Shown in pieces: positions 22,940-37,114 of a stretch of DNA of 64,000 bases. Origin of the DNA: Propionivibrio soli (lineage in GTDB: Bacteria > Pseudomonadota > Gammaproteobacteria > Burkholderiales > Rhodocyclaceae); NCBI RefSeq assembly GCF_025770765.1, contig NZ_JANZKY010000008.1, forward strand, positions 124,001-188,000. Reading direction: 5' to 3'. A program made the translations under genes and the position numbers. Below the pieces are notes generated by a model, which saw only the letters and a program-made list of their open reading frames with translations, did no database searches and was not told where the DNA came from. Within the stretch, counting starts at the first letter, position 1, and the number at the start of each line of letters is the position of its first letter.

Positions 22940-24454
22940 TTACATCACCGCGCCCACCTGCCATGGCAGAAACTCGTCGTTGCCATAACCGAGTTCCTCA
23001 CTGCGCACCTTTTCGCCGGAAGCATGGCGGATGATCGCATCGAAAATACGCTGACTGATGACGGACATCGGCGTTCCAGTAATCAGATCGCCACAATTCA
23101 CGTCCATGTCGTCGCCCATGCGTTCGTACAGAGCATTGTTCGACGCCAGTTTGATCGTCGGTACGCCAGCACAGCCAAACGCGGAACCGCGCCCAGTGGT
23201 GAAGCAGATAATTTGCGCACCGCCGGCCGCCTGCCCCGTCGCCGACACCGGATCGTATCCCGGCGTGTCCATGAACACGAAGCCTTTCGCACCGACCTGT
23301 TCGGCAAACAGGTAGACGCCGTTCAACTGGCTGGTGCCGCTCTTGGCGACAGCGCCGAGCGATTTTTCCAGGATCGTCGTCAAGCCACCCGCCTTGTTGC
23401 CAACCGACGGGTTGTTGTCCATCTCCGCCCCCGTCCGGCTCGTGTAATCCTTCCACCACGCGATCCGGTCGATCAGCTTCTGCGCAATCTCCGGCGTCGC
23501 GGCACGGCGCGTCAGCAGATGCTCGGCGCCGTAGATTTCGGGCGTCTCCGAGAGGATCGTCGTCCCCCCTTGAGCAATAAGCATGTCCGAGGCTCCGCCG
23601 AGCGCCGGGTTGGCGGTGATGCCGGAATAACCATCCGAGCCGCCGCAATTGAGGCCGACGATCAGGCTGCTTACCGGCGCCTCTTCACGGCGATAGGCAT
23701 TCGCCTTGTCCAGCATGCCTTCGACGATGGCAATGCCCTTGCGGATCGCCGCCGTCGTGCCGCCTTCTTCCTGCATGACCAGGCGTTGCAGCATGCCTTC
23801 CTCGTGCTGGCCGACCATCTCGATCAGCGGCGCGATCTGGTTCTGTTCGCAGCCGAGACCGACGAAAAGCACGCCGGCGAAATTCGGGTGCTTGGCATAA
23901 CCAACGAGCGTGCGGCGCAAGATCTGCATCCCCTCGCCGGCCACGTTGATACCGCATCCGAGCGGGTGCGGGAGTGCGATAACACCGTCGACGTTCGGAT
24001 AAGCCGCCAGCCGCTCACGTGTGAAATGCCCGGCAATCGAGCGTGTCACCGTTGCCGAACAATTCACCGACGAGATGACCGCGATGTAGTTGCGCGTTCC
24101 CACCTTACCGTTCGGACGACGATACCCCTTGAATGTCGCGGGCTTGTCGACAAGTTTCGTCGGGTGCGCGTCCTGGCCAATGCCGTAGTCGCGCTCGAAC
24201 TCACCCATGCCGAGGTTGTGTGCATGCACGTGCTGGCCTGCCGCGATATCCGACTTGGCGAAGCCGATTACCTGGTTGTAGCGGCGAACGCGATCGCCCG
24301 CCTTGATGTCATGTGCGGCCATCTTGTGGCCGGACGGGATCAGATCGCGCACCGTGACGCGCTCGTTATCGATCGTCGTCCCGGGAATCAGTTGCTGGGC
24401 GGCGATCAACACATCGTCGTTGGCATGCAGGCGGATCACCGTGGGTTGGGTCAT
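22940..24454 (-). CDS. uxaA: Altronate dehydratase
   Basis: UxaA dehydrates D-altronate to 2-keto-3-deoxygluconate. The protein has 504 residues. The N-terminal SAF-like domain (about 10-95) with HANDDVLIAAQ and the GHKMA...AGDRV segments precedes the UxaA catalytic part with GTRNYIAVISSVNCSAT, HPLGCGIN, VGLNCGGSDGYSG and GRGSAFGC. GGAG lies 6 bases ahead of the ATG at 24454; an ATG at 24466 is also in frame. It is the last gene of the TRAP-dehydrogenase-uxaB-uxaA unit. Confidence 0.94.
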   Translation of the reverse strand: MTQPTVIRLHANDDVLIAAQQLIPGTTIDNERVTVRDLIPSGHKMAAHDIKAGDRVRRYNQVIGFAKSDIAAGQHVHAHNLGMGEFERDYGIGQDAHPTKLVDKPATFKGYRRPNGKVGTRNYIAVISSVNCSATVTRSIAGHFTRERLAAYPNVDGVIALPHPLGCGINVAGEGMQILRRTLVGYAKHPNFAGVLFVGLGCEQNQIAPLIEMVGQHEEGMLQRLVMQEEGGTTAAIRKGIAIVEGMLDKANAYRREEAPVSSLIVGLNCGGSDGYSGITANPALGGASDMLIAQGGTTILSETPEIYGAEHLLTRRAATPEIAQKLIDRIAWWKDYTSRTGAEMDNNPSVGNKAGGLTTILEKSLGAVAKSGTSQLNGVYLFAEQVGAKGFVFMDTPGYDPVSATGQAAGGAQIICFTTGRGSAFGCAGVPTIKLASNNALYERMGDDMDVNCGDLITGTPMSVISQRIFDAIIRHASGEKVRSEELGYGNDEFLPWQVGAVM

Positions 24455-24566
24455 GTTGGACTCCATCAAGAATCGATTCGTAAGCGGAGAAACACCGGGC
24501 ACGACGACAAACGGTGGTTATGAATCCACCTTGGCGTCACGCCCGTCTTGGCGAAAAGGCCGATGA

Positions 24567-26063
24567 TTACAGCTCACCCATAGCCGCTTTGACCCCGACG
24601 GCCTTGATACGTGCCAACGCGGAGGCCGTCTGCTCGGCCAGTCCTGGAACCTTCGTCAAATCCTCGCCCCACAGGCGCGTATCGGCAAGCAGCATCGTCG
24701 CGACCTTGGTCACGTCGGTTGTGCCGGACCACGCGGCATTCATGATCGTCAGAATGTCGGCGTTGTCCTTGATCGGATAGGCGCCCTTCTCCCGGGTTCC
24801 CTCGTAATCCCCATTAGCGGCCAGCTTGCCATGGTAGAAGTTGAGCAGAGCCGCCAGCGAGAACGATAGACCGGCCGGGGCCGTACCGTGCTTCGCGGCG
24901 AAATCCTTGACCGTCGGCAGTACGCGCACTTGCCACTTCGACACCGAGTTGAGCGCGATCGAAATCAGCTCGTGGCGGATGTGCGGGTTGGCGAAGCGCT
25001 CCATGATCGTCTCGGCATACGCTTTGCGCTCGGCGTCAGGCAGCGGGACGAAGGGGACGATCTCGTCGAACATGACTTTGTTCAGATACTTCGAAACGGT
25101 CGGGTCCTCGGTCATCTCGCGCACCGTATCCAGCCCGGCGCAATACGAGGCGAGCGAACTCGCCGTGTGCGCGCCGTTGAGGATGCGCACTTTGCGCGTG
25201 CGGTAGGGCTGCAGATCGTCCGTCCATACAACGTCCAGACCGGCTTTATGCAACGGCAGTTCTTCGGCAATCTTCGCCGGGCCTTCGATCACCCAGAGCA
25301 GGAACGGCTCGGCGGCGACCGTCAGCGGGTCCTTGTAGCCGAACTCGTCGTAAAGCGCTTCCGCCTCGGCGGCCGGGAAGCCAGGGACGATGCGGTCGAC
25401 CAGCGTGTTGCAGAAAACGTTGTGGTTCTTCACCCAGGCGATGAAATCGGCCGGCAGTTTCCACGCGTCGGCGAACTTCAGCACGTATTGCTTCAGCTTG
25501 GAGCCATTCGCTTCGATCAGTTCGCACGGCAGGAAAACGAGCCCCGATTCCGGCGAGCCGTTAAACGCTTTGAAGCGGGCCAACAAGAGCGCCGTCACCT
25601 TGGCCGGGAAATTCGCCGGGCACTTGCCCTCGACGAGGCTTTCCTCGACGTACGCGATGCCGGCCTCCGTCGTGTTGGAAACGACAAAGCGTAACGCCGG
25701 ATCGCGCATCGTCGCCAGCATCGTGTCCCATTCGGCATATGGATTGACCGTATTCTTGACGCAACTCACCAGCCGCTTCGACTGCACCTGCTGGCCATTC
25801 TGCACGCCACGCAGCAGCACCGTGAACAATTGGTCCTGCGCCTTCATCAACCCGGCGACGCCACGTTCAAGCGGCTGCACCATGGTTACTTCGCCGTTCA
25901 TGAGTCCGGCGCCATTGGCTACGTCCACCATCCAGTCGACGAACGCGCGCAGGAAATTGCCGTCACCGATCTGCAGGATGCGCGTCGGCTTCAGCGACGA
26001 CGGCGCCGCCGATTCGACGGCGAGTTGGCCTTCGGCAAGGCAGGCTCTATTCAGAGTTTTCAT
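24567..26063 (-). CDS. uxaB: Altronate oxidoreductase (tagaturonate reductase)
   Basis: UxaB is an NAD-dependent enzyme of the mannitol dehydrogenase family that interconverts D-tagaturonate and D-altronate. From the ATG at 26063 (498 aa) it shows LQIGDGNFLRAFVDWM, SNTTEAGI, PCELIEANG, the catalytic-lysine region in RKVRILNGAHTA, and VLPTVKDF. GGAGAGG 9 bases ahead fixes the start; an upstream in-frame start at 26135 lacks support. The 278-base gap to the dehydrogenase gene shows no feature I can support. uxaC (uronate isomerase) is absent from the window. Confidence 0.94.
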   Translation of the reverse strand: MKTLNRACLAEGQLAVESAAPSSLKPTRILQIGDGNFLRAFVDWMVDVANGAGLMNGEVTMVQPLERGVAGLMKAQDQLFTVLLRGVQNGQQVQSKRLVSCVKNTVNPYAEWDTMLATMRDPALRFVVSNTTEAGIAYVEESLVEGKCPANFPAKVTALLLARFKAFNGSPESGLVFLPCELIEANGSKLKQYVLKFADAWKLPADFIAWVKNHNVFCNTLVDRIVPGFPAAEAEALYDEFGYKDPLTVAAEPFLLWVIEGPAKIAEELPLHKAGLDVVWTDDLQPYRTRKVRILNGAHTASSLASYCAGLDTVREMTEDPTVSKYLNKVMFDEIVPFVPLPDAERKAYAETIMERFANPHIRHELISIALNSVSKWQVRVLPTVKDFAAKHGTAPAGLSFSLAALLNFYHGKLAANGDYEGTREKGAYPIKDNADILTIMNAAWSGTTDVTKVATMLLADTRLWGEDLTKVPGLAEQTASALARIKAVGVKAAMGEL

Positions 26064-26341
26064 TGAGACCTCTCCAAGGTTCTTGCTTGTAACAGAAAGG
26101 AAAAGGGCGCCAGTCGATCCGATCGGAGACCGCAACCCGAAAACCGACGCAGAAAGTGCGATGGCATCAGGCCGCGAATATCCTATTTGTCCGACCCCCT
26201 GTCCAATGCCTATTCAACATGCACATATGCAAGGCCCGCATGGCGGGAAATGATGCGCATGAAGCGTCGCCTCCCTCCCGCGAGCAGTCAGGAAGCGGGG
26301 TCACCCAAGGGCGACGCCCGGCACCTGCACTACGACGCTGC

Positions 26342-27355
26342 TCACAGAACGCACGTCACTTTCAGATACCGCTCCGGATGCGCCGCGATATCAGCCACCG
26401 TTGCCGGCGTCTCGTCGAGCGACACCGTCTTGGTCAGAAGCGCGGCCACGTTGACCTTGCCCTCGGCGATCAGCTGCAGGCTCTCCGGGAACTGCCCGAC
26501 GCTGTTGCGCGAACCGCGGACGGTGAGTTCTTTCTTGGTGAACAGTGCGGTCGGCAGCGGGATGTCGGCTTTCGGCCACCCCACCAACGATATGTGTCCA
26601 GCATAAGACACATAGTCGATCGCGCCACGAATCGCGCGCGCATCGCCCGACGCTTCGATCACCACTTCGGCCATGCGTCCCTGCGTGATGCTGTGAATCT
26701 CGGCGACGGCATCGCTCGACGTTGGGTTGATCGTATGCGCAACGCCAAGCGAACGCGCGAGTGCGAGACGCTCGTCGACCGGATCGACCACGATCGGTAT
26801 TGCCCCGAAGGTCAGCGCATATTGCGCCGCCAGGAGGCCGATCTGCCCGGCGCCGGTAACCACCACATGCTGCCCCGCTTTTGTCTCCGATTGCTTGATC
26901 GCATGCATGGCTATGACAAGCGGCTCGGCCATGGGTACGAGATTCCACGGAATACCAGCTGGCACTTTATGTACCAGGTGGCGGGGATGCGAGATGAACT
27001 CCGCCATACCACCTTCGATATGCACGCCACGCACCGTCAGGTTTTCGCAGCAATTGGTATGGCCAATCGAGCACGGATAGCATTTGCCGCAATAGACGTA
27101 TGGCTCGATGATGACGCGATCGCCCGGCATGAACTCCACCTCATCATCCGGCACTTCGACCACCTCGCCGGCTATTTCATGGCCGATGATCCGCGGATAG
27201 GACACGAGCGGATTGACGCCCTTGTACGCACCGATGTCAGACCCGCAGATCCCCGCGCTGCGAACCTTGATCAGTATCTGGTCTTTCTCGCGCTTCTGTT
27301 CCGGAATTTCCACCAGCGATATGTCGCCGGGCTGTTTCAAACAAACGGATTTCAT
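26342..27355 (-). CDS. Zinc-dependent medium-chain dehydrogenase, LgoD-like
   Basis: A 337-residue zinc alcohol dehydrogenase. Catalytic zinc ligands sit in GICGSD and GHE; the structural zinc site is CGKCYPCSIGHTNCC; the nucleotide site is VVTGAGQIGLLAAQ. The overall sequence and GSRN motif resemble L-galactonate 5-dehydrogenase (LgoD/YjjN) and related polyol dehydrogenases. LgoD makes D-tagaturonate, exactly the substrate of UxaB encoded next, which supports that activity; idonate or another sugar acid cannot be excluded. GGAG precedes the ATG. It lies 16 bases behind dctM. Confidence 0.8.
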   Translation of the reverse strand: MKSVCLKQPGDISLVEIPEQKREKDQILIKVRSAGICGSDIGAYKGVNPLVSYPRIIGHEIAGEVVEVPDDEVEFMPGDRVIIEPYVYCGKCYPCSIGHTNCCENLTVRGVHIEGGMAEFISHPRHLVHKVPAGIPWNLVPMAEPLVIAMHAIKQSETKAGQHVVVTGAGQIGLLAAQYALTFGAIPIVVDPVDERLALARSLGVAHTINPTSSDAVAEIHSITQGRMAEVVIEASGDARAIRGAIDYVSYAGHISLVGWPKADIPLPTALFTKKELTVRGSRNSVGQFPESLQLIAEGKVNVAALLTKTVSLDETPATVADIAAHPERYLKVTCVL

Positions 27356-27371
27356 GCTTTCTCCAGTTCAA

Positions 27372-28655
27372 TCACATGGGTACCCAATTGGCGAGAACGA
27401 GCGAAAGGGGTGGGTAATACGTGGTGACCGCCAGCGTCACGCCGAGCGCAACATAGAACGGAACGATCTCTTTCATGTATTCGTCAATCTTGACGCCTGT
27501 TAAATTGCAGGTGAGGAACATCGTCGTGCCGAACGGCGGCGTAATGGCGCCGATCGAGAGATTGAAGATCATCATGATCCCGAAATGCACGGGGTCGATC
27601 CCCAGCGCCTGAACCGTCGGCATGAGCAGCGGAGTCAAAACAATGATGGCGGCATTCCCGTCGAGGAACATGCCCACGACGATCAGCAACACGTTGACGA
27701 TCAGAAGGAAGACGGTCGGGCTCGTGGATATTCCCATCAGCAACTCCGTCGCTTCCGCCGCCACACCTTCCCAGGTCAGTATCCAGGCGAAGCCGGCTGA
27801 TGCCATGAGGATCAGCATGATGGAGCCGTTGGCACGCGCCGATTCGGCGAGCGCGGTCTTCACGTCCTTCCACGTTGTCTCCTTATAGGCGAAGCCGACA
27901 GCCAGCGCGTAGATGCAGGTGACGGCCCCGGCTTCGGTCGGCGTGAAAATGCCGTAGCGTATGCCGCCGAGGATCAGGACCATCAGCATCAAGCCCCAGA
28001 ACGCTTCAAGCGAAGCCTTACCCATTTCTTTGAGGCTCGCCATTTTCGGCCGAGTCGCCTTGTAACCGCGCTTGCGCGCGACGTAGTCGACCGCCACCAT
28101 CAGCAGCAAGGTGCACAGGATTCCAGGCCCCATGCCGCCCATGAACAGCTTGCCAATCGAGGTGTCGGAAACGAACCCGTAGATGATGAGGCCGATGCCC
28201 GGCGGCAGAATCGGACCAAGCAAGGCCGAAGCGGAGGTCAGGGCCGCCGCGAACGGACGGCTGTAGCCGTTCTTGCTCATTTCGGGCACGAGCACTTTGC
28301 AGATCATCGCAGCATCGGCCAGCCCCGCGCCCGACGGCCCGCCAATCAATGCACCCAGCACGACATTGGTCTGCGCAAGGCCACCGCGCATATGCCCCGA
28401 CAGGGCATCAGCGAGAACGAGGAGCCGATTCGTGATCCCGGTGTAATTGAGGACCGAACCGAGCATCATGAAGAACGGTATGGCAAGCAACGGCAGATTA
28501 TCCGCGCCACCGATCATTCGTTGCACCACCATCACGGCCGACATATCCTGGGCGATGAAGAAGTAAGCAAAAGTCGCGGCGCAGATGGCAAAGGCCACCG
28601 GAACGTTGATGGCAAACAATGCCAACATAACCAGGAAGGCAATCAGAACACTCAT
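27372..28655 (-). CDS. dctM: TRAP transporter large membrane subunit (DctM type)
   Basis: A 427-residue multi-spanning permease of the DctM family (about 12 helices) that uses the Na+ gradient. Typical segments are IPFFMMLGSVLNYTGI, LIGGPSGAGLADAAMI, ILPPGIGLIIYG and GAITPPFGTTMF. It overlaps dctQ by 4 bases. With DctQ and DctP it would import the sugar acid handled by the downstream dehydrogenase, UxaB and UxaA. Confidence 0.94.
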   Translation of the reverse strand: MSVLIAFLVMLALFAINVPVAFAICAATFAYFFIAQDMSAVMVVQRMIGGADNLPLLAIPFFMMLGSVLNYTGITNRLLVLADALSGHMRGGLAQTNVVLGALIGGPSGAGLADAAMICKVLVPEMSKNGYSRPFAAALTSASALLGPILPPGIGLIIYGFVSDTSIGKLFMGGMGPGILCTLLLMVAVDYVARKRGYKATRPKMASLKEMGKASLEAFWGLMLMVLILGGIRYGIFTPTEAGAVTCIYALAVGFAYKETTWKDVKTALAESARANGSIMLILMASAGFAWILTWEGVAAEATELLMGISTSPTVFLLIVNVLLIVVGMFLDGNAAIIVLTPLLMPTVQALGIDPVHFGIMMIFNLSIGAITPPFGTTMFLTCNLTGVKIDEYMKEIVPFYVALGVTLAVTTYYPPLSLVLANWVPM

Positions 28656-29170
28656 TGCGCGGACTCCTCAGCATCATCATCTAGATTGGTTGTATTTTTC
28701 TTGCCGCGCAGGCTGTTCCAGAACATCCGGCCGTAGTACAGAAGCATCAACGAGCAGGAAACGGGAATCGACGCATCGACATAGCTGTACGGGATCCCGA
28801 GGATCGGCGTGAGCTTGGTTTGTCCTTTGATGGTCAGTACGACGCCGAACCAGATGAGAAGGCAAAGCGTAATGAGAACGACCAGGTCGCCGATAATACT
28901 GATCGAACGTTGCAAGTTGCGCGGAAAGCGGCGAACCAGCACGTCGATCGAGCAATGCCCTTCGACGTGGATGACGGCCGAGGCGCCGAGCATCGTCAGC
29001 CATACAAAAGTAAAGACCGTCACTTCTTCGACCCAGCCCCATGGCTTGCCGACGACATAACGCATGAACACGTTGGCACAGGCGAGCAGAATGATGAACG
29101 CCATGGCCAGCATGCCGAAGAAGTTGTCGACCCTTCGGACAAAATCGTAAAACGCGTGAAAGACCTTCAT
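28652..29170 (-). CDS. dctQ: TRAP transporter small membrane subunit (DctQ type)
   Basis: A 172-residue four-helix subunit of the DctQ family, with FMRYVVGKPWGWVEEV as the family marker. An AGGTGG sequence sets the ATG at 29170; the GTG at 29179 is less likely. The C-terminus is acidic and cytoplasmic. It follows dctP after a terminator-like hairpin and overlaps dctM by 4 bases. Confidence 0.92.
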   Translation of the reverse strand: MKVFHAFYDFVRRVDNFFGMLAMAFIILLACANVFMRYVVGKPWGWVEEVTVFTFVWLTMLGASAVIHVEGHCSIDVLVRRFPRNLQRSISIIGDLVVLITLCLLIWFGVVLTIKGQTKLTPILGIPYSYVDASIPVSCSLMLLYYGRMFWNSLRGKKNTTNLDDDAEESAQ

Positions 29171-29249
29171 AGGATCCACCTGTATCGGGCACAGCCGCCC
29201 TTGACCTCGCGGACGAGACCACCCCTGACTGCCAAGAAAAGAAAACCGA

Positions 29250-29271
29250 CGGGCGCCAGACCCGGCGCCCG
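29250..29271 (-). terminator. Terminator-like hairpin between dctP and dctQ
   Basis: CGGGCGCC-type stem: GGGCGCC (29251-29257) and GGCGCCC (29264-29270) are perfect complements with a 6-base loop and one more closing pair. On the minus strand a TTTTCTTTTCTT tract begins 5 bases after it. It starts 12 bases behind the dctP stop and should end part of the transcripts there or protect the dctP 3' end. Confidence 0.6.
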
Positions 29272-29282
29272 CGCGTCCGTAG

Positions 29283-30281
29283 TTACTTAGATCCGATGAT
29301 CGAGTAAACCTTGTTCATGACCTCCGGCGGGAATTCCTTGTTGAAGCGATTCGGGAAATCCTTCATTGCGGCCTTGAACGCGGCGCGGTCCACTTCGACA
29401 ACTTTCACGCCGGCGGCTTCCATCTTCTTCACGGCGTCCTTGTCGGCGATCTCGTTCTCCTTGTCGAGGAACTTGCCGGCTTCTTCGCCCGTCTCTTTGA
29501 GCATCTGGACGATCTCGGGCGGGAGCTTCTTGATGAAGCTGGTGCCGGCGATCCAGGAGGACAGATTGACCTGGTGGCGGGTCATCAACAGGTACTTGGC
29601 GCCTTCGAACATCTTGCCGCCATAAAGCACCGGAATCGGGTTTTCGGCACCGTTGATCACGCCCTGCATCAGCGCGGGATAGGCTTCAGCCAGCGGCATC
29701 GGCGTCGCCGTAGCGCCCATGGCGTTCATCATTTCGTTGGAGAGACGGATGTTCGGCACGCGGATCTTCAGACCCTTCAGGTCTTCCGGCTTGGTCGCTG
29801 GTTTGGTGGCGAGCATGTTGCGCACACCGTAGATCCACTTGCTATGCACAATGTAAAGGCCCTTGGCCTCGAGCTGCTTGGAAAGGTCCTTGAACAGATC
29901 GCTGTCGACCAGTTTGAAGAGCTGTTCCTTGTTGTCGTAGATGTAGGGCAGATAGGTCACGCCAAAAGCCGGCACGTAATCCATCAGGAAGCCGCCATCA
30001 GAGATCGTGATCACGTTCGATCCGATCGTCAGTTGCTCGGTGACGTCCTTCTGCGAGCCGAGCATTGAGCTCGGGAAATACTGGAATTCGACTTGCCCCT
30101 TGCTACGTTCCTTCATCAGCCGGCCCCACTCGCGCACCGCCTTGTCGTTGGGCTCACCGACGTTGTTGCCGTAGGCAATCTTGATCTTGATTGTCTCCGC
30201 GGCAACGGCGCCACCCGCGGCTACGCACATGGCTGCGCCCACCGCTGCAACCATCAGCTTCTTACTGATCTTTGAGAACAT
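29283..30281 (-). CDS. dctP: TRAP transporter solute-binding protein (DctP type)
   Basis: Periplasmic binding protein, 332 residues, with a Sec signal peptide (about 1-27, ending VAAAE). DctP family markers include GRLMKERSKGQVEF, the ligand-carboxylate arginine in LKIRVPNIRLSNEM, and GVINGAENPI. Context suggests a hexonate or hexuronate ligand. It heads the transporter-dehydrogenase-uxaB-uxaA unit and has a sigma-54 promoter 95 bases upstream. Confidence 0.94.
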   Translation of the reverse strand: MFSKISKKLMVAAVGAAMCVAAGGAVAAETIKIKIAYGNNVGEPNDKAVREWGRLMKERSKGQVEFQYFPSSMLGSQKDVTEQLTIGSNVITISDGGFLMDYVPAFGVTYLPYIYDNKEQLFKLVDSDLFKDLSKQLEAKGLYIVHSKWIYGVRNMLATKPATKPEDLKGLKIRVPNIRLSNEMMNAMGATATPMPLAEAYPALMQGVINGAENPIPVLYGGKMFEGAKYLLMTRHQVNLSSWIAGTSFIKKLPPEIVQMLKETGEEAGKFLDKENEIADKDAVKKMEAAGVKVVEVDRAAFKAAMKDFPNRFNKEFPPEVMNKVYSIIGSK

Positions 30282-30376
30282 AAGTCATCCCTCTCTTAGT
30301 GTTTTGACCCCACGGCACAATGCCGGAGGCACGTCGAAGCCGCACCGATAAACGGGAAGCCTCCTGGACCAATGAG

Positions 30377-30392
30377 AGCAAAGCCCGTGCCA
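30377..30392 (-). promoter_or_regulatory. Sigma-54 (-24/-12) promoter of the TRAP/uxa operon
   Basis: The minus strand reads TGGCACGGGCTTTGCT, a full match to the consensus TGGCACG-N4-TTGC followed by T, with correct -24 GG to -12 GC spacing. Transcription would start near 30366, about 85 bases ahead of the dctP ATG. The divergent neighbour encodes a sigma-54 activator. Confidence 0.88.
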
Positions 30393-30433
30393 TTTCTATC
30401 TCATTGTTTTTATTACCCTCGCCTCTCGCGACA

Positions 30434-30447
30434 TTTCATATCTGAAA
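30434..30447. promoter_or_regulatory. Upstream activator site 1 (TTTCA-N4-TGAAA)
   Basis: Perfect inverted repeat TTTCA-TATC-TGAAA. Its centre is about 75 bases upstream of the predicted sigma-54 start site, a usual distance for an enhancer. It shares its arms with site 2, 23 bases away. Confidence 0.65.
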
Positions 30448-30455
30448 CATGTGTA

Positions 30456-30471
30456 ATTTCAATTGTGAAAT
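30456..30471. promoter_or_regulatory. Upstream activator site 2 (ATTTCA-N4-TGAAAT)
   Basis: Perfect inverted repeat ATTTCA-ATTG-TGAAAT with the same arms and spacing as site 1. The two centres are 23 bases apart, about two helical turns, so dimers would sit on one face. It is 40 bases ahead of the regulator's ATG and could also mediate autorepression. Confidence 0.65.
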
Positions 30472-30510
30472 CCTTGTTACACTCGCAACATCTCGTTACT
30501 CGCCGTCACC

Positions 30511-32370
30511 ATGCGCCCTATCCTCCTCTTGAGCCCCATGCGCAGCATTGCGGACATAGCCCCCCAGATTGCGCGCGACATGGGGATCAACATCCACGTC
30601 GTCGTATCGGACGACGCCAACGCGGTCGAACAGGTTCTTCGCTATCCCGAGGTGGAAGTTGTCGTTACGCGGGGCGGACTGGCCCAACGCGTACGCGCAA
30701 TACCGGGGATCAGCGTCGTCGAAATCTCGATGTCGCTCAACGAATTGCTCGGCATCCTGAGCGAATTAACGAGTCAAGGTCACAAGCGAATCGGTATCGT
30801 CAGCCGGGGCAACCTATTCAGTGGAGCGGCCGGCACCTTCCGCATCATGGACGCCGAGGTCAGTATCCGGCCCCGCGATGATGAAGAAGCAATCGCAGCC
30901 ACTGTCAGGGAACAGGTCAGCGAGGGGTTCGAAGCGATCATCGGTTGTCGGGTTGCCTATAAGACAGCATGCGAATTAGGCATCAAGGCCGTATTCCTTG
31001 AAAGCGGCCCTGTGTCGATCAAGGCCGCGCTTCAGGAAGCCGTGCGCCTGCTCGAAGCCAAAGAGCGCGAAAAGCTGCAGGCGGCGCAACTAACCGCCAT
31101 CATCGACAACATCGATGAAGCCGTCATAGCCGTTACGCCGGAAAATGAAGTGAGCTTCTTCAACCGCCATGCAAAACGGCTTTGTTCGACAGGACCGGCT
31201 TCTCCGCCAGACTTTGCGCATGCGTTGGCTGTCTTTGACTCGGGAGAAAAGGAGCAGATTGCGACGATTAACGGCAACAACGTGTTCGCACGCAGCATCC
31301 CGCTCGAATTCGACCATACAGCACGAGGCAAAGTGGTTACGTTGCACGAAGTCGCGCGAATTCAAGCGTCGGAGACGAAAATCCGGTCCTCTTTCTACCA
31401 GAAGGGGTTGTACGCGCGTTACCACTTCAAGGATGTGATCGGCGAATCCGAAATCATGAGGCAGGTACTCACCCGCGCGAAGACGTTCGCCGGGCATGAC
31501 TCGAATCTGCTGATTTACGGTGAAACCGGGACGGGTAAAGAAGTCTTCGCGCAGAGCATTCACAACCAGAGCAAGCGCCGCAAGGGCCCGTTCGTTTCGG
31601 TCAACATCGCATCCATTCCTCCGACGCTTCTGGAAAGCGAGCTTTTCGGCTATGTCGACGGCGCCTTCACCGGCGCGCGTAAGGGTGGCAAGCCCGGGTT
31701 GTTCGAGTTGGCCCACGAGGGCACGCTTTTCCTCGATGAAATCGGTGAAATGGCCCCGGAGATCCAGAGCCGTTTGCTGCGCGTGCTTCAGGAACGGGAA
31801 ATCATGCGTATCGGTGACGACAAAATCATCCCGGTCGACGTGCGCATCATTTCCGCGACCAATCGCGACCTCTTCAAACAAACGCTTTCTGGCGGCTTCC
31901 GTCAGGACCTCTATTACCGCATCCACGTCGTCGGGCTGCGCATCCCGCCGCTAAGGGCTCGTAGCGAGGACGTTCCCCGAATCTTCGAACACTACCTGCA
32001 ACGTTTCGCCGGGCAGGCTGGACACAACCCAGGACTCACGTCCGCCGCCAGGGACTTCCTAAAGACGTACTCATGGCCAGGCAATATCCGCCAATTGAGA
32101 AACGTCGCCGAGGTCGTTGCCTATAGCGAAACCGAGCTAGTAGATACCTCGCACATCGTGGAAGCTCTTGGCGAACAGGAGCACGCATCGACGACTTCCG
32201 GACTCCTCACCATCCCCGACAGCGGCTCGCTAAAGCAAATGGAGTCGGAGATCATCCGTAATATGCTTGCGCGGCACAGCGCCGACGAGGTCTGCACGCG
32301 CCTCGGCATCAGCCGCGTCACCTTATGGCGCAAGATGAAAAACCTTCCGATCGACATGACGCGTCACTAG
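30511..32370 (+). CDS. Sigma-54-dependent activator with PrpR-type sensor domain
   Basis: Enhancer-binding protein of 619 residues. An N-terminal PrpR_N-like ligand domain (about 1-195) is followed by a short PAS-like segment (about 200-300), an AAA+ domain with Walker A GETGTGKE (337-344), the sigma-54-contacting GAFTGA (384-389) and FLDEIGEM, and a C-terminal Fis-type helix-turn-helix (LGISRVTLWRKM). PrpR itself senses 2-methylcitrate for propionate use, but no prp genes are here. The divergent sugar-acid operon with a consensus sigma-54 promoter is the evident target, so the ligand is probably the imported acid or an intermediate. Confidence 0.9.
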   Translation: MRPILLLSPMRSIADIAPQIARDMGINIHVVVSDDANAVEQVLRYPEVEVVVTRGGLAQRVRAIPGISVVEISMSLNELLGILSELTSQGHKRIGIVSRGNLFSGAAGTFRIMDAEVSIRPRDDEEAIAATVREQVSEGFEAIIGCRVAYKTACELGIKAVFLESGPVSIKAALQEAVRLLEAKEREKLQAAQLTAIIDNIDEAVIAVTPENEVSFFNRHAKRLCSTGPASPPDFAHALAVFDSGEKEQIATINGNNVFARSIPLEFDHTARGKVVTLHEVARIQASETKIRSSFYQKGLYARYHFKDVIGESEIMRQVLTRAKTFAGHDSNLLIYGETGTGKEVFAQSIHNQSKRRKGPFVSVNIASIPPTLLESELFGYVDGAFTGARKGGKPGLFELAHEGTLFLDEIGEMAPEIQSRLLRVLQEREIMRIGDDKIIPVDVRIISATNRDLFKQTLSGGFRQDLYYRIHVVGLRIPPLRARSEDVPRIFEHYLQRFAGQAGHNPGLTSAARDFLKTYSWPGNIRQLRNVAEVVAYSETELVDTSHIVEALGEQEHASTTSGLLTIPDSGSLKQMESEIIRNMLARHSADEVCTRLGISRVTLWRKMKNLPIDMTRH

Positions 32371-32526: not shown

Positions 32527-34500
32527 CTACAGCTTCCGCGCCATCTCCTGCAATTGGTTCAGGCGGCCCACCAGGTCGTTGAGCACGACAATGCCTTGCG
32601 TCAACTGGTCGGTGTTCTTCAGATTCCCCGACAAGTGCTCGTGTTCGCGCGCCGCATCGGAGGCCATCACCTGTACCTGTTTCGCCGCTTCTTCGCTGGC
32701 GGCGATTAGCCGGTTCATCGATTCGAGCGTCGTATCGGCCGTCTGGCGAATCGAAGAAATCGTCGTCACCGCCTGCTGGATGCTCGAGCCCGTCCGTTCC
32801 GCCTGATCTTTGGCCGCTTGTGCCAGCTTGCGCACTTCGTCCGCCACGACCGCGAAGCCGCGCCCCGCTTCGCCCGCCCGAGCGGCTTCGATCGCGGCAT
32901 TGAGCGCCAACAGGTTGGTCTGGTCTGCAATCTGCCCGATGCCGCCCGTGATCCCGCTGATGTCCTTGGAGAGCCGTTCCAGGTCGTCGAGCCCGCTGCC
33001 CAGGTTGATCTGGGACGATTGCGATTGCTTCGCCGTCCCGCCGACGTTGCCGATCAAATCCAATGCCTTGAGCATGCTCCCCGATTGTTGTTTGAACCCT
33101 TCGGCCAGCGCCGGCAGCACGTCGATGACCGGCTGGATCGTGCGCTCGTAATCGACCACGCGGTCGACCATCCCACGTTGCATCTCGCTCAGCGTCTCCC
33201 AACGACGTAGCGAGCGTTGCGAGTAATGCGAGGCGAACGACGAGTAATGCACGGGAAAGGCGTCCATGAAGGCGTCCGCGTAACCCGGGCCTTCGGAAAA
33301 GAACACGAGGGCCGACAACGTCTGGTTGATGGGGATGCCGAGCACTTCACCGAACGACGAATAACCCGCCGCCGGCATACCCCTGAAGAACTCCGCTTTC
33401 CCGAGCGCACCGCCGTTGCCCAGACGCCGAAGAATGCAGTCATTGAGCAAGATCGCGATCGGCGCGCCGTGAGAGGCGGCGAACGTTCGCCATTCGTTTT
33501 GCGTCGTTTCAATGAAGTCGGTCTGCCGCAGCAGGTGCAGCCGATCGCCGAACTCGATATCACAGAAGAAAGCCGTGTGGTCTTCTTCGATCGCCGCTAC
33601 TGAACGGATGAACATTTCTTTGCCGACCTGCACCCCGAAGGTGTGCCCCTGCAATCGCCCCGCAACTTCGCCCGCGGAGCAGCCGAAATGTTGCGCCAGC
33701 GCATCGATGAAACGAATCGTCGTTCCGTCCTTGGCGAAAACGGTACGCACGTGGCGCAGGACGGGGTCGGCATCGGCAACCAGCCAGTTTGCCTGTACCG
33801 GCTGGAAATTCTGAGTCTTGAACGGTGAAAAACGCACACCGGGCCGTACCTTGCAGAAAATCAGTACGGCGTGGCCGCTCAGCGTTTGCCCGCGAGCGTG
33901 GATGTAGGTTCCAGAAAAGTCCGTTTTGCCCCCTGCACTACCACCGATCGCGAGACAAGGAAAACGCCCTGACTCGTAATAGGCGCGCATCAGGAAGCCT
34001 TCGGACGCGCTCAAACCATCGATGAACACAAGGCAGAACGTATCCTGCGCGTTGATCTTCATCGTTGGCCGAACGCGCTCAAGTTCGGCGGCGACGGCGC
34101 GCACCCGTTCGGCGACAGTCTTGCCTTCCTTGGGCTTCAGATCGACGGCAAAAACTTCCGTACTTGCAATCAACTCGCCGCCAAGCTGGAGATAACTGCC
34201 TTCGCGGTCCTTTGCGTCGGCGCCGCAGTACGTCGACCCACCCTCTGCGCGACTGCATAGCGCGCCGGACGATGAAACGGCTACAAAGGAAGGCGACGAG
34301 GCCCCTTTCCCGGCCACGGCCATGGCAAGGCGATCGGCCGTCGCTGTGAAGTTGGCGTACGGCGGCACGAACGCTACGAACAGCCCGCCATCGAGGACAT
34401 CTACGGCCGCCGGTGCTTCTGCATCGAAACGTCCGGAAACCGCCGTCCGGGCACTCTTCTGCTCGGTCGCCTGGCCTTTTCTGGAAAGAAACGAGAACAT
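32527..34500 (-). CDS. Soluble chemoreceptor with FIST sensor domains
   Basis: A 657-residue methyl-accepting chemotaxis protein without membrane helices. FIST_N (about 40-235) and FIST_C (about 245-395) domains form the sensor; FIST domains are proposed to bind small ligands such as amino acids. The signalling domain has the highly conserved hairpin tip with [16 protein letters not shown] and [17 protein letters not shown] correctly spaced GGGGAGG sets the ATG at 34500. No other che genes are in the window. It is convergent with the sigma-54 activator gene. Confidence 0.9.
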
Positions 34501-34596
34501 GACGAGCCTCCCCATGAGACAAGAAGAATAGCTATATGGGCCATTCTAGACACGGATCGTCAGGGTGGAAGTTGTTTCGTTTGGGGGCTGGTACCG

Positions 34597-34827: not shown

Positions 34828-34885
34828 GCGGGCATAATGCGTGCACTGTTCGATTAAGCGGCATTGCCGCCCGAAAGCTCCACCG

Positions 34886-37114
34886 ATGAGCAAGGCGTAT
34901 CCGGGTTATGCCAAATTGATCGCGCAGCTCGAGGAGTCTCAGCATCTTTCAGCGGTTCGGCGCGGGTTCCTGCTCTTGCTTCCGCTCGTCATGATTGGGG
35001 CGGTATCGCTTGTGCTCGGAAACCTCGCGCTGCCCGAGAGCCTGATAAGGGGTCCGCTGCACGCGTGGCAGGGCGTGTTCCTGCATGCAGGTGACGCGGT
35101 ATTCGGCCTCGTTTCGCTCTGTCTGACGATGACCGTCAGCCATTCGCTTGCCGCTCAGCGACAGACCGATTGCTGCCACGACGTGCAGCCGATGATGCCG
35201 GCAATCGTTGCCTTGCTCTGTTTCCTGGTACTCGTCGCGCCGTTCGACGGCAATTCGGAAGGCAGTCTCTTCGGACCACACTTCGTCTTTCCTTCGTTGC
35301 TGGTCGCCATCGGCGCCACTGAAATATTCCTTCGGCTCGCGGCCGGCCGACGTTCCCGTTGGGGATGGATCGCACACGATGCCGACCCGATTTTTCCCGG
35401 CATCCTGCATTCGTTCTTCCCGGCATTTTTCACGATCGGCGTTTTTCTTATCGCGCGGCTGATTCTAGGGCTGGCCGACAAACCCCTGATGACGCTCTTC
35501 GAAAATATGTTGTTAGCGCTGTTCGATCCCCTGCAGTCCGGACTCGCGCGCGCGCTGCTTTTCAACTTTATCAGTCAGTTGCTTTGGTTCGTCGGCATCC
35601 ACGGCAATAATGTTCTGGCGCCAATCGAACAGCACTACTTCCAGACGGCCGAAATGGCCAACGCAGCCGTTCTCGCGACAGGAGGGCAGCCGGTCGAGGT
35701 TTTCACCAAGTCGTTTCTCGATATCTATGTCTTTATGGGAGGATCGGGTACGTCGCTCGCATTGCTGGTCGCCATCTTCATTCATTGGCGGGGAAGCAAC
35801 CAGAATCGGCTCGCCCGTGTCGGCCTCGCTCCTGCCCTGTTCAACGTCAGCGAATTGGCCGTCTTCGGCCTTCCCGTAATTTTCAACCCGGCGTTCCTGC
35901 TGCCTTTCATCGTGACGCCGCTTGCCCTGACCATCATCAGCTATTTCGCTTGTGCGTCGGGCTGGATCCCTGTGGTACGCGAATCTCTGAACTGGACGAC
36001 GCCGTTCGGAATCGGCGGTTACCTTGCTGCGCAGTCGTGGCATGGCGCGATCTTGCAGTTCTTCAACCTGTTTGTCGGCGTGCTCATTTATTCGCCTTTC
36101 GTGCGGGCCGCGCAAAAACACACGTTCAAGGAACGGCGGCGCGATTTTCAGCGCTTGCTCGACGCTCTGGAGGAATCCTGCCTCAATCAGCATTCGGGCA
36201 TCCTCGAACGCCGCGATCCCGTCGGATCGCAGGCGCGGCGATTAGCGAACGATTTGCGGTACGCCGTTTCGCGCGGTGAAATACAGCTCATGTATCAACC
36301 GCAGGTTGACCAACGAGGAAGCGTCGTCGGGCTGGAAGCGCTGCTACGCTGGGAATACGGCGCCTTCGGCCGCATTCCTCCGAATATCGTCATCGCGCTC
36401 GCCGAGGAAGCCAACCTGATCTGCCGGCTCGGCGACTGGGTCATCGACGAAGCATGTGGGCAGCTGCGGCAATGGCGCTCCGAGGGCGTCGCGCGCGGCG
36501 TCGTCATGTCGATCAACATATCGCCGACCCAGCTCAATGAACCCGGGTTCGCCGATCGCGTCCTTCTGATCCTCTCGCGCCACGCATTGCCGGCCGGGGC
36601 GATCGAACTCGAGATCACCGAGAGCCGCACCATCGCCCACAACGAGACGACCGCTCAGACACTTGAGCAGTTGGCGCGAAGCGGAATTCGACTGGCAATC
36701 GACGACTTCGGGATGGGCTACAGTTCGCTGCTCTACATGCGCCGGTTCGTCATCCACGGCATCAAGCTCGACGGCTCTCTAACACGCGAGGTCCAGAGCA
36801 ACCCGAGCTGCCAGGAAATCATCCGCACCATCGCCCATCTCTGTCGCAAAAAAAACATCCGGATCATCGCCGAGTTCGTCGAAAACGAAGAGCAGCGTAC
36901 GTTGCTCGAAGCGCTCGGTTGTTCCGAGTTTCAGGGGTTCCTCTTCAGCAAACCGCTGCCGCCGGCCGAATGCGCCGATTTCGTTCGATCCCGCCGTTCG
37001 CAGGCGGTGAGCAAGGCCAGGCAAGGCACCAACGCAGCGAACCAGCGAAGACTCGGCGGTTATCGCGGCGATGGGCTGCGAATCTCAGCCGACCCGATCA
37101 GTAGCCGCGCGTAG
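34886..37114 (+). CDS. PTS EIIC-like membrane domain fused to an EAL phosphodiesterase domain
   Basis: The N-terminal part (about residues 15-420) is a lactose/cellobiose-type PTS EIIC channel with about 10 helices. GIHGNN (His239) and FNVSELAVFG (Glu323) match the substrate-binding His and Glu of ChbC-type EIIC proteins. No EIIA or EIIB domain, and no pts gene, is present. The C-terminal part (about 450-700) is an EAL domain with EAL at 484-486, ELEITES, DDFGMGYSSL, and an IAEFVE motif where IAEGVE is usual; metal-binding residues look intact, so c-di-GMP hydrolysis is plausible. The ATG at 34886 is favoured over 34841, which would be almost at the transcript start. Likely a sugar-sensing c-di-GMP enzyme. 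Confidence 0.88.
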   Translation: MSKAYPGYAKLIAQLEESQHLSAVRRGFLLLLPLVMIGAVSLVLGNLALPESLIRGPLHAWQGVFLHAGDAVFGLVSLCLTMTVSHSLAAQRQTDCCHDVQPMMPAIVALLCFLVLVAPFDGNSEGSLFGPHFVFPSLLVAIGATEIFLRLAAGRRSRWGWIAHDADPIFPGILHSFFPAFFTIGVFLIARLILGLADKPLMTLFENMLLALFDPLQSGLARALLFNFISQLLWFVGIHGNNVLAPIEQHYFQTAEMANAAVLATGGQPVEVFTKSFLDIYVFMGGSGTSLALLVAIFIHWRGSNQNRLARVGLAPALFNVSELAVFGLPVIFNPAFLLPFIVTPLALTIISYFACASGWIPVVRESLNWTTPFGIGGYLAAQSWHGAILQFFNLFVGVLIYSPFVRAAQKHTFKERRRDFQRLLDALEESCLNQHSGILERRDPVGSQARRLANDLRYAVSRGEIQLMYQPQVDQRGSVVGLEALLRWEYGAFGRIPPNIVIALAEEANLICRLGDWVIDEACGQLRQWRSEGVARGVVMSINISPTQLNEPGFADRVLLILSRHALPAGAIELEITESRTIAHNETTAQTLEQLARSGIRLAIDDFGMGYSSLLYMRRFVIHGIKLDGSLTREVQSNPSCQEIIRTIAHLCRKKNIRIIAEFVENEEQRTLLEALGCSEFQGFLFSKPLPPAECADFVRSRRSQAVSKARQGTNAANQRRLGGYRGDGLRISADPISSRA

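Follow-up and report, generated by a model that had tools for sequence, protein, structure and literature searches.

Which sugar acid is imported and broken down by the operon that lies between positions 22,940 and 32,370 of a 64,000-nucleotide stretch of the Propionivibrio soli genome (Rhodocyclaceae; contig NZ_JANZKY010000008.1, positions 124,001 to 188,000; the whole stretch is called the window below), and what switches this operon on? In this study, we read the locus as an operon for the import and catabolism of L-galactonate under a dedicated sigma-54 activator, and we put the probability of this reading at roughly three in four. On the minus strand, the genes follow one another in the transcription order DctP, DctQ, DctM, an LgoD-like zinc dehydrogenase, UxaB and UxaA, with the activator gene divergent on the plus strand.

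Genes of the locus and the predicted pathway

The seven genes are listed below, the transporter being of the tripartite ATP-independent periplasmic (TRAP) type.

22940..24454, minus strand: UxaA-like altronate dehydratase (Pfam GD_AH_C, 331 bits)
24567..26063, minus strand: UxaB, tagaturonate reductase (NF002969, 612.8 bits against a cut-off of 359)
26342..27355, minus strand: LgoD/RspB-like zinc dehydrogenase, predicted L-galactonate 5-dehydrogenase (best NCBIfam match PRK10083)
27372..28655, minus strand: DctM, large TRAP permease (TIGR00786, 414.3 bits against a cut-off of 268)
28652..29179, minus strand: DctQ, small TRAP permease (PF04290, DctQ, 122.2 bits)
29283..30281, minus strand: DctP, TRAP solute-binding protein (TIGR00787, 187.8 bits against a cut-off of 175)
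30511..32370, plus strand: PrpR_N-domain sigma-54 activator of 619 residues (PrpR_N 96.7, Sigma54_activat 225.9 and HTH_8 29.2 bits)

This gene list and layout had been proposed in an original prediction made from the letters of the DNA; each of the seven genes has its open frame at the position given, and the prediction is confirmed on this point. The UxaA-like protein may start at ATG 24454 or 24466 (the longest frame reaches 24502, and the scans took 22940-24463), while the probable start of UxaB is ATG 26063 (the scans took 24567-26072).

In the proposed mechanism, DctPQM would bring in L-galactonate, the zinc dehydrogenase would oxidise it at C5 to D-tagaturonate, UxaB would reduce D-tagaturonate to D-altronate, and UxaA would dehydrate D-altronate to 2-keto-3-deoxygluconate (KDG). 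The breakdown would be completed by a kinase and a 2-keto-3-deoxy-6-phosphogluconate (KDPG) aldolase whose genes lie elsewhere in the genome; four matches to the KDPG/2-keto-4-hydroxyglutarate (KHG) aldolase family and 13 PfkB matches were found there, and two such pairs stand side by side on contig C34. The same three-step chain from L-galactonate to KDG had been put forward earlier and is still the best fit. UxaB shares 41% identity with E. coli UxaB against 26% with UxuB, so that tagaturonate is the likely intermediate, and a C5 dehydrogenase yielding tagaturonate acts on L-galactonate.

The dehydrogenase scores 212.6 bits against PRK10083, below the cut-off of 376, is 33% identical to RspB, and keeps its zinc-site motifs intact. 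The dehydratase carries the Pfam domains GD_AH_C, GD_AH_second and SAF, and in a tree of 18 rows, from which E. coli GarD was absent, it groups separately from both E. coli UxaA and the GarD of this genome, so that the tree did not confirm it as a UxaA of the E. coli type. An identity as GarD was considered and rejected, since the protein reaches 389.5 bits against a TIGR03248 cut-off of 730.85, and the genome's own GarD, encoded elsewhere, scores 935. The names LgoD and UxaA are thus given to the window enzymes from their context, as predicted functions. The nearest solved structures to DctP are 4ovt from Ochrobactrum (E 7.6e-81) and 4o8m from Actinobacillus (E 1e-75), which also come first by fold, with a predicted DctP model of mediocre quality (mean predicted local distance difference test score, pLDDT, 69.7).

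The same circuit might instead serve another hexonate that suits both the TRAP importer and the dehydrogenase, namely L-gulonate, L-gluconate, L-fuconate or altronate, which we regard as a possible but rather doubtful explanation. Related dehydrogenases and pathways act on other C5 epimers: the L-gulonate pathway of Haemophilus influenzae joins a TRAP importer and a dehydrogenase with UxuB and UxuA (PMC5788505), and the Luteolibacter enzyme LguD is reported to take L-gluconate and L-galactonate almost equally (PMC12632266). Among 78 named loci of relatives, drawn from a one-genome-per-species scan, L041 holds a regulator of the same type and a TRAP importer alongside an enolase-superfamily dehydratase and an SDR protein, and a fructuronate product would also be compatible with the UxaE found in L040. 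However, an L-gulonate route needs UxuB and UxuA, and the neighbour here is UxaB; an L-gluconate route calls for an epimerase, a role that LguG fills in Luteolibacter, and no such enzyme is encoded by the seven genes; and import of altronate alone would leave the dehydrogenase without explanation.

The control region and its single place in the genome

The reading of the locus as an L-galactonate operon extends to its switch, which is located between the activator gene and dctP and whose promoter does not appear in the original prediction.

30377..30392, minus strand: sigma-54 promoter, -24/-12 element TGGCACGGGCTTTGCT, facing dctP
30397..30409, plus strand: site resembling that of integration host factor (IHF), in the promoter-to-dyad interval, weak in the window with 2 mismatches
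30434..30447, no strand: probable activator site, dyad 1, TTTCATATCTGAAA, a perfect TTTCAN4TGAAA
30457..30470, no strand: probable activator site, dyad 2, TTTCAATTGTGAAA, a perfect TTTCAN4TGAAA, 23 bp from dyad 1

Both marks of a sigma-54-dependent operon, a -24/-12 promoter and activator-type sites upstream of it, are found here, and the genome carries two rpoN-type genes. As judged from its sequence, the control region is a classical sigma-54 architecture, and the TTTCAN4TGAAA dyads are the probable binding sites of the regulator. The PrpR_N protein would occupy the two tandem dyads, which lie upstream of the -24 element at a distance of some 40-80 bp. Upon binding a small acid, it would remodel the polymerase that carries sigma-54 at the TGGCACGGGCTTTGCT promoter, and the intervening DNA would probably be bent. 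A scan for sigma-70 promoters gave one candidate in comparison with a mean of 3.7 expected from shuffles, which is nothing beyond background.

The conservation of these elements was examined in 16 intergenic regions from which regulator and operon diverge (that of the window and those of L003, L032-L041, L043, L044, L047 and L055), among which L034/L036 and L003/L038 are near copies and not independent; L042, whose contig ends with no TRAP gene seen, and L046, which has a co-directional layout and is reported apart, were omitted. The -24/-12 element is present on the operon-ward strand of all 16 regions, 13 times exactly and three times with one mismatch, an exact-match count that is partly built in, the promoter string having been composed after the regions were viewed. 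The dyad pair with its 23 bp spacing was recovered with at most four mismatches in 13 of the 16 (at most one in 11 regions, three in L033 and L039). Of 1600 first-order Markov versions of the same regions, 29 contained the promoter with no more than one mismatch and none contained the dyad pair with no more than four. In 15 of the 16 regions, the distance between the pair and the -24 element is 40-42 bp, L041 and L055 being among them on weak pairs; in L040 the best promoter is 108 bp from the pair, and a second one with a single mismatch (GGGCACGTCGATTGCT) is about 41 bp away. Between the dyads and the promoter, an alignment of 11 regions revealed a conserved TAAGTCATTG(A/T)TT block, which resembles an IHF site. 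Thus the PrpR-type sigma-54 circuit suggested in the original prediction is strongly supported by the conserved promoter together with the conserved activator-type sites.

With at most three mismatches allowed, the 4.76-Mb genome contains the tandem site once and its reversed control nowhere, so that the regulon probably comprises no more than this operon; a single exact dyad occurs at four places, two of them being this pair, with one occurrence for the reversed control. Across the genus, a longer version of the site was detected at one place each in 10 of 28 genomes (control 0/28), and lgoD (E up to 1e-90) in 11 of 28; the two occur together in eight genomes (Fisher p 0.0018), the genomes of one genus not being independent. 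Among the three genomes with lgoD and without the site, of which G131 is described below, the contig of G142 stops before the region, and G140 carries a diverged site with the regulator, its sequence being the same as that of L040. In a family search of 121 evenly drawn genomes, a close regulator was found, besides the window's own genome, only in G105 (72%), the next best match being 39%; the locus is patchy.

It is very improbable that the activator governs something else and stands beside the operon by chance. In favour of this, a regulator of 43% identity stands alone in L051, with none of the operon genes nearby; yet the divergent layout is conserved, the -24/-12 element faces dctP at a nearly fixed distance from the dyads, and each of the 10 site-bearing genus genomes has one site.

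Concerning the regulator itself, no other protein of the genome matches PrpR_N; it displays PrpR_N, an AAA+ domain with GAFTGA at residue 384, the Walker A and Walker B motifs, and HTH_8, as in the wider family of PrpR_N sigma-54 activators. Its identification as PrpR proper was rejected: it scores 348.8 bits with TIGR02329 against an equivalog cut-off of 499.2, and its divergent neighbour is a TRAP operon. Genes of the 2-methylcitrate cycle are not adjacent to the regulator, which has the TRAP operon on one side and FIST-MCP and PTS_EIIC-EAL proteins behind it, the search for prp genes being confined to this neighbourhood. The model of its N-terminal part (mean pLDDT 89.4) finds E. coli PrpR 2pju and 2q5c as its best structural matches.

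The genes behind the regulator are also worth recording. End to end with it lies a protein with a FIST domain and an MCP signalling domain (32527-34515, minus strand), which may act as a receptor of some small ligand. It is followed by a 757-residue protein (34841-37114, plus strand) in which a sugar-transporter domain, PTS_EIIC, is fused to an EAL domain, a phosphodiesterase of cyclic di-GMP. The fusion looks like an unusual link between sugar transport and a second messenger, no search having been made for others. The locus had also been called an island, and in the sense of a recent insertion this is not supported: its GC content is 0.57-0.63 in 2-kb steps against a window range of 0.56-0.64, the sole tRNA of the window is 6.7 kb away and not at the border, and the FHA-domain gene adjoining uxaA occupies the same position in L033, L034 and L044. 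Marks of a recent island (base composition, a tRNA border or broken synteny) were thus not seen at the locus, integrases and transposases not having been searched for.

Loci of relatives, galacturonate and the inducer

Neighbour counts were taken from the 16 named loci whose regulator is at least 55% identical to that of the window; open reading frame clustering covered 29 of the 78 loci together with the window, and sites were scanned within 500 bp of the regulator in 20 more distant ones. Near the regulator, DctP was observed in 14 of the 16 loci, a close LgoD in 12, UxaB in eight and UxaA in seven. These counts are lower bounds, as five of the stretches (L032, L036, L037, L042 and L047) stop within the operon or short of it. 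In L043, the UxaA counted lies 6 kb past the regulator on the opposite side; UxaB and UxaA are lacking though the stretch continues in L035, L040, L041, L046 and L055. In L040, which has neither in the available stretch, the tagaturonate epimerase UxaE follows LgoD, as expected if the dehydrogenase yields a 5-ketouronate. An apparent DctM-LgoD fusion in L040 (an 839-residue frame) was dismissed, the DNA upstream of LgoD having been read out of register with DctM. Two Succinivibrio loci, L053 and L054, with regulators of about 40% identity, harbor, in this order, the regulator, DctPQM, LgoD, UxaB and UxaA and then a PfkB kinase and an Eda aldolase. In L053, the only one of the two scanned, the best model for the kinase is KDG/KDGal kinase (185.5 bits, under the cut-off of 400), and the aldolase scores 228.4 bits, over the cut-off of 156. 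The gene neighbours in relatives, including this kinase and aldolase, fit L-galactonate as the predicted substrate. Pectinatus loci L050 and L052 display LgoD, UxaB and UxaA without TRAP.

Among the 20 distant loci, an N4 dyad and a sigma-54 promoter accompany the regulator in five (L045, L046, L048, L049 and L050), the distance from dyad end to promoter being 41 bp in L046, where the spacing is kept, and 130-170 bp in L048-L050. The promoter is kept and the exact dyad absent in L053 and L054; L051 and L052 show no dyad; and in the other 11 loci the N4 dyad was detected in none, a five-base-gap version appearing in L069 and L074. The background for dyads with gaps of 3-5 was 47 in 1.41 Mb of named loci.

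The absence of uxaC claimed by the original prediction stands for the locus and fails for the genome, where UxaC is encoded at G000:C32:259199-260596 (E 5.1e-198; glucuronate isomerase model 601.6 bits), with KduI, KduD and a regulator resembling KdgR (259.8 bits, against a cut-off of 275) as its neighbours. With uxaC in the genome, tagaturonate from galacturonate could also feed UxaB and UxaA, so that galacturonate could share these two enzymes under other regulation. That the operon serves mainly D-galacturonate, with UxaC supplied from the separate locus and the dehydrogenase as a side activity, is nevertheless improbable in our estimation. It would agree with the neighbours of UxaC and with the fact that, among the three Mannitol_dh_C proteins of the genome, only the window's UxaB exceeds the tagaturonate reductase cut-off; but UxaC is on another contig with its own regulator gene nearby and without the tandem site, and the dehydrogenase is kept in more of the 16 relatives than UxaB or UxaA.

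The more frequent retention of LgoD than of UxaB and UxaA in close relatives makes L-galactonate or tagaturonate more likely as the inducer than altronate or KDG, and we consider L-galactonate or D-tagaturonate the most likely inducer; L035 and L041 speak against a strict rule. In a broader sense, we lean slightly towards PrpR_N being a domain that senses small hydroxy and sugar acids in general, and not a propionate domain, of which one clade (Rhodocyclaceae, Rhodoferax and Negativicutes, with diverged sites in Succinivibrio) would sense L-galactonate or tagaturonate through TTTCAN4TGAAA, and the sister clades of Sporomusa, Pelosinus and Lucifera would sense acids of the galactarate pathway beside GarD.

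Several observations weigh against the assignment of the locus to L-galactonate and its dedicated activator. Over 286 residues, the identity between the dehydrogenase and E. coli LgoD is only 36%; the dehydratase is about as close to the genome's own GarD (38%) as to E. coli UxaA (37%); and the ligands of 4ovt and 4o8m are only presumably L-fuconate and L-galactonate. L035 and L041 have a close regulator and yet a different dehydrogenase (31% identity in L035), without UxaB or UxaA in the available stretch. No UxaB or UxaA occurs in a further 5.9 kb of L046 and 1.0 kb of L055. UxaE joins tagaturonate with fructuronate, so that L040 alone does not exclude a fructuronate product. The dyad pair is weak in L040, L041 and L055 (5, 6 and 7 mismatches), and the combination of dyad and promoter is lacking in 15 of the 20 distant loci. 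In genome G131, neither regulator nor TRAP nor site is found near a close LgoD, and G133 and G139 carry the site without a close lgoD match, their sites being letter-identical to those of L035, with its other dehydrogenase, and L037, whose contig ends in the operon.

Apart from these points, the relatives offered further arrangements. In G131 (L171, 4751-8598), the close LgoD (77%) adjoins a second dehydrogenase and a UxaA-like protein of 56% identity, an alternative arrangement. L041 (2215-10364) comes from the same metagenome-assembled genome as L033, an L-galactonate-type locus, and represents a second regulator-TRAP pair, its gene set being possibly an L-fuconate-like route. Succinivibrio L053 (1398-6893) holds a second regulator paralogue divergent from a second UxaB-UxaA pair. 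In L046 (9667-13575) of Anaerospora hongkongensis, a member of Negativicutes, DctP, DctM and LgoD are 76%, 80% and 63% identical to those of the window, with dyad and sigma-54 promoter, and a transfer between phyla is probable. In Sporomusa L069 (3806-11908), as well as in L077 and L080, genes for GarD, a member of the DHDPS family, an MFS transporter and GarR stand divergent from a related PrpR_N regulator, and a sigma-54 promoter is present without the TTTCAN4TGAAA dyad upstream. The domain scans were confined to L069, where GarD scores 898 bits; this type of locus is probably a galactarate switch.

Comparison with known systems

With reference to E. coli, the same three reactions are encoded by lgoT-lgoR-lgoD, uxaCA and uxaB with exuT and exuR, the genes being distributed over three places, with the symporter LgoT instead of TRAP and with LgoR (a putative regulator) and ExuR (a repressor), according to annotation; both are presumably of the GntR family. 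Loci combining TRAP, lgoD, uxaA and uxaB for L-galactonate were described in 2017 from Halomonas and Chromohalobacter salexigens, where lgoD, uxaA and uxaB or uxaF with TRAP make up the same enzyme chain and import as in the window; hence the enzyme set itself is not new. In the section consulted, the Chromohalobacter TRAP is reported to have dual specificity for L-fuconate and L-galactonate, FucR sites are marked in the figure legend, and a sigma-54 activator is not mentioned (PMC5507952). The GulPQM-GulD-UxuB-UxuA system of H. influenzae follows the same logic of TRAP, C5 dehydrogenase, reductase and dehydratase, by the fructuronate/mannonate branch, unlike the window (PMC5788505).

On the regulatory side, the portion consulted of a sigma-54 regulon survey lists altronate dehydratase COG2721 and MFS permeases as predicted targets in Bacillota, at COG level only, and a term look-up in its main text gave no PrpR, galactonate, Rhodocycl or Propionivibrio (PMC12316311). 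A survey of Clostridiales counts PrpR_N as one of the sensor domains that sigma-54 activators carry there (PMC6615313). The regulators named for the use of L-galactonate or hexuronates in the records and parts of the literature examined are FucR, LgoR, ExuR, UxuR and LguR, and no PrpR-type sigma-54 control of an L-galactonate locus was found in searches of an open-access library, which is no proof of absence.

If the proposed reading is true, a sigma-54 activator would provide a positive and tight switch and a second testable ligand class for PrpR_N. L-galactonate is an intermediate of fungal pectin use, and, with a single genomic site and a conserved promoter anatomy, this locus would offer a clean model for the acid and perhaps a biosensor of it. 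E. coli PrpR, likewise a sigma-54 activator, is 40% identical to the window regulator over 338 residues and shares its N-terminal fold (2pju), the N-terminal domain being 16% identical in the structural match. The E. coli prpR-prpB intergenic region also contains TTTCA/TGAAA half-sites, arranged otherwise, and a TGGCACACCCCTTGC element, the divergent neighbour being prpB there and not in the window. Compared with PrpR, the DNA half-site and the fold thus seem to be kept, and the ligand has presumably changed; compared with the known L-galactonate loci, the pathway chemistry is known, and the PrpR-like sigma-54 switch for L-galactonate looks new.

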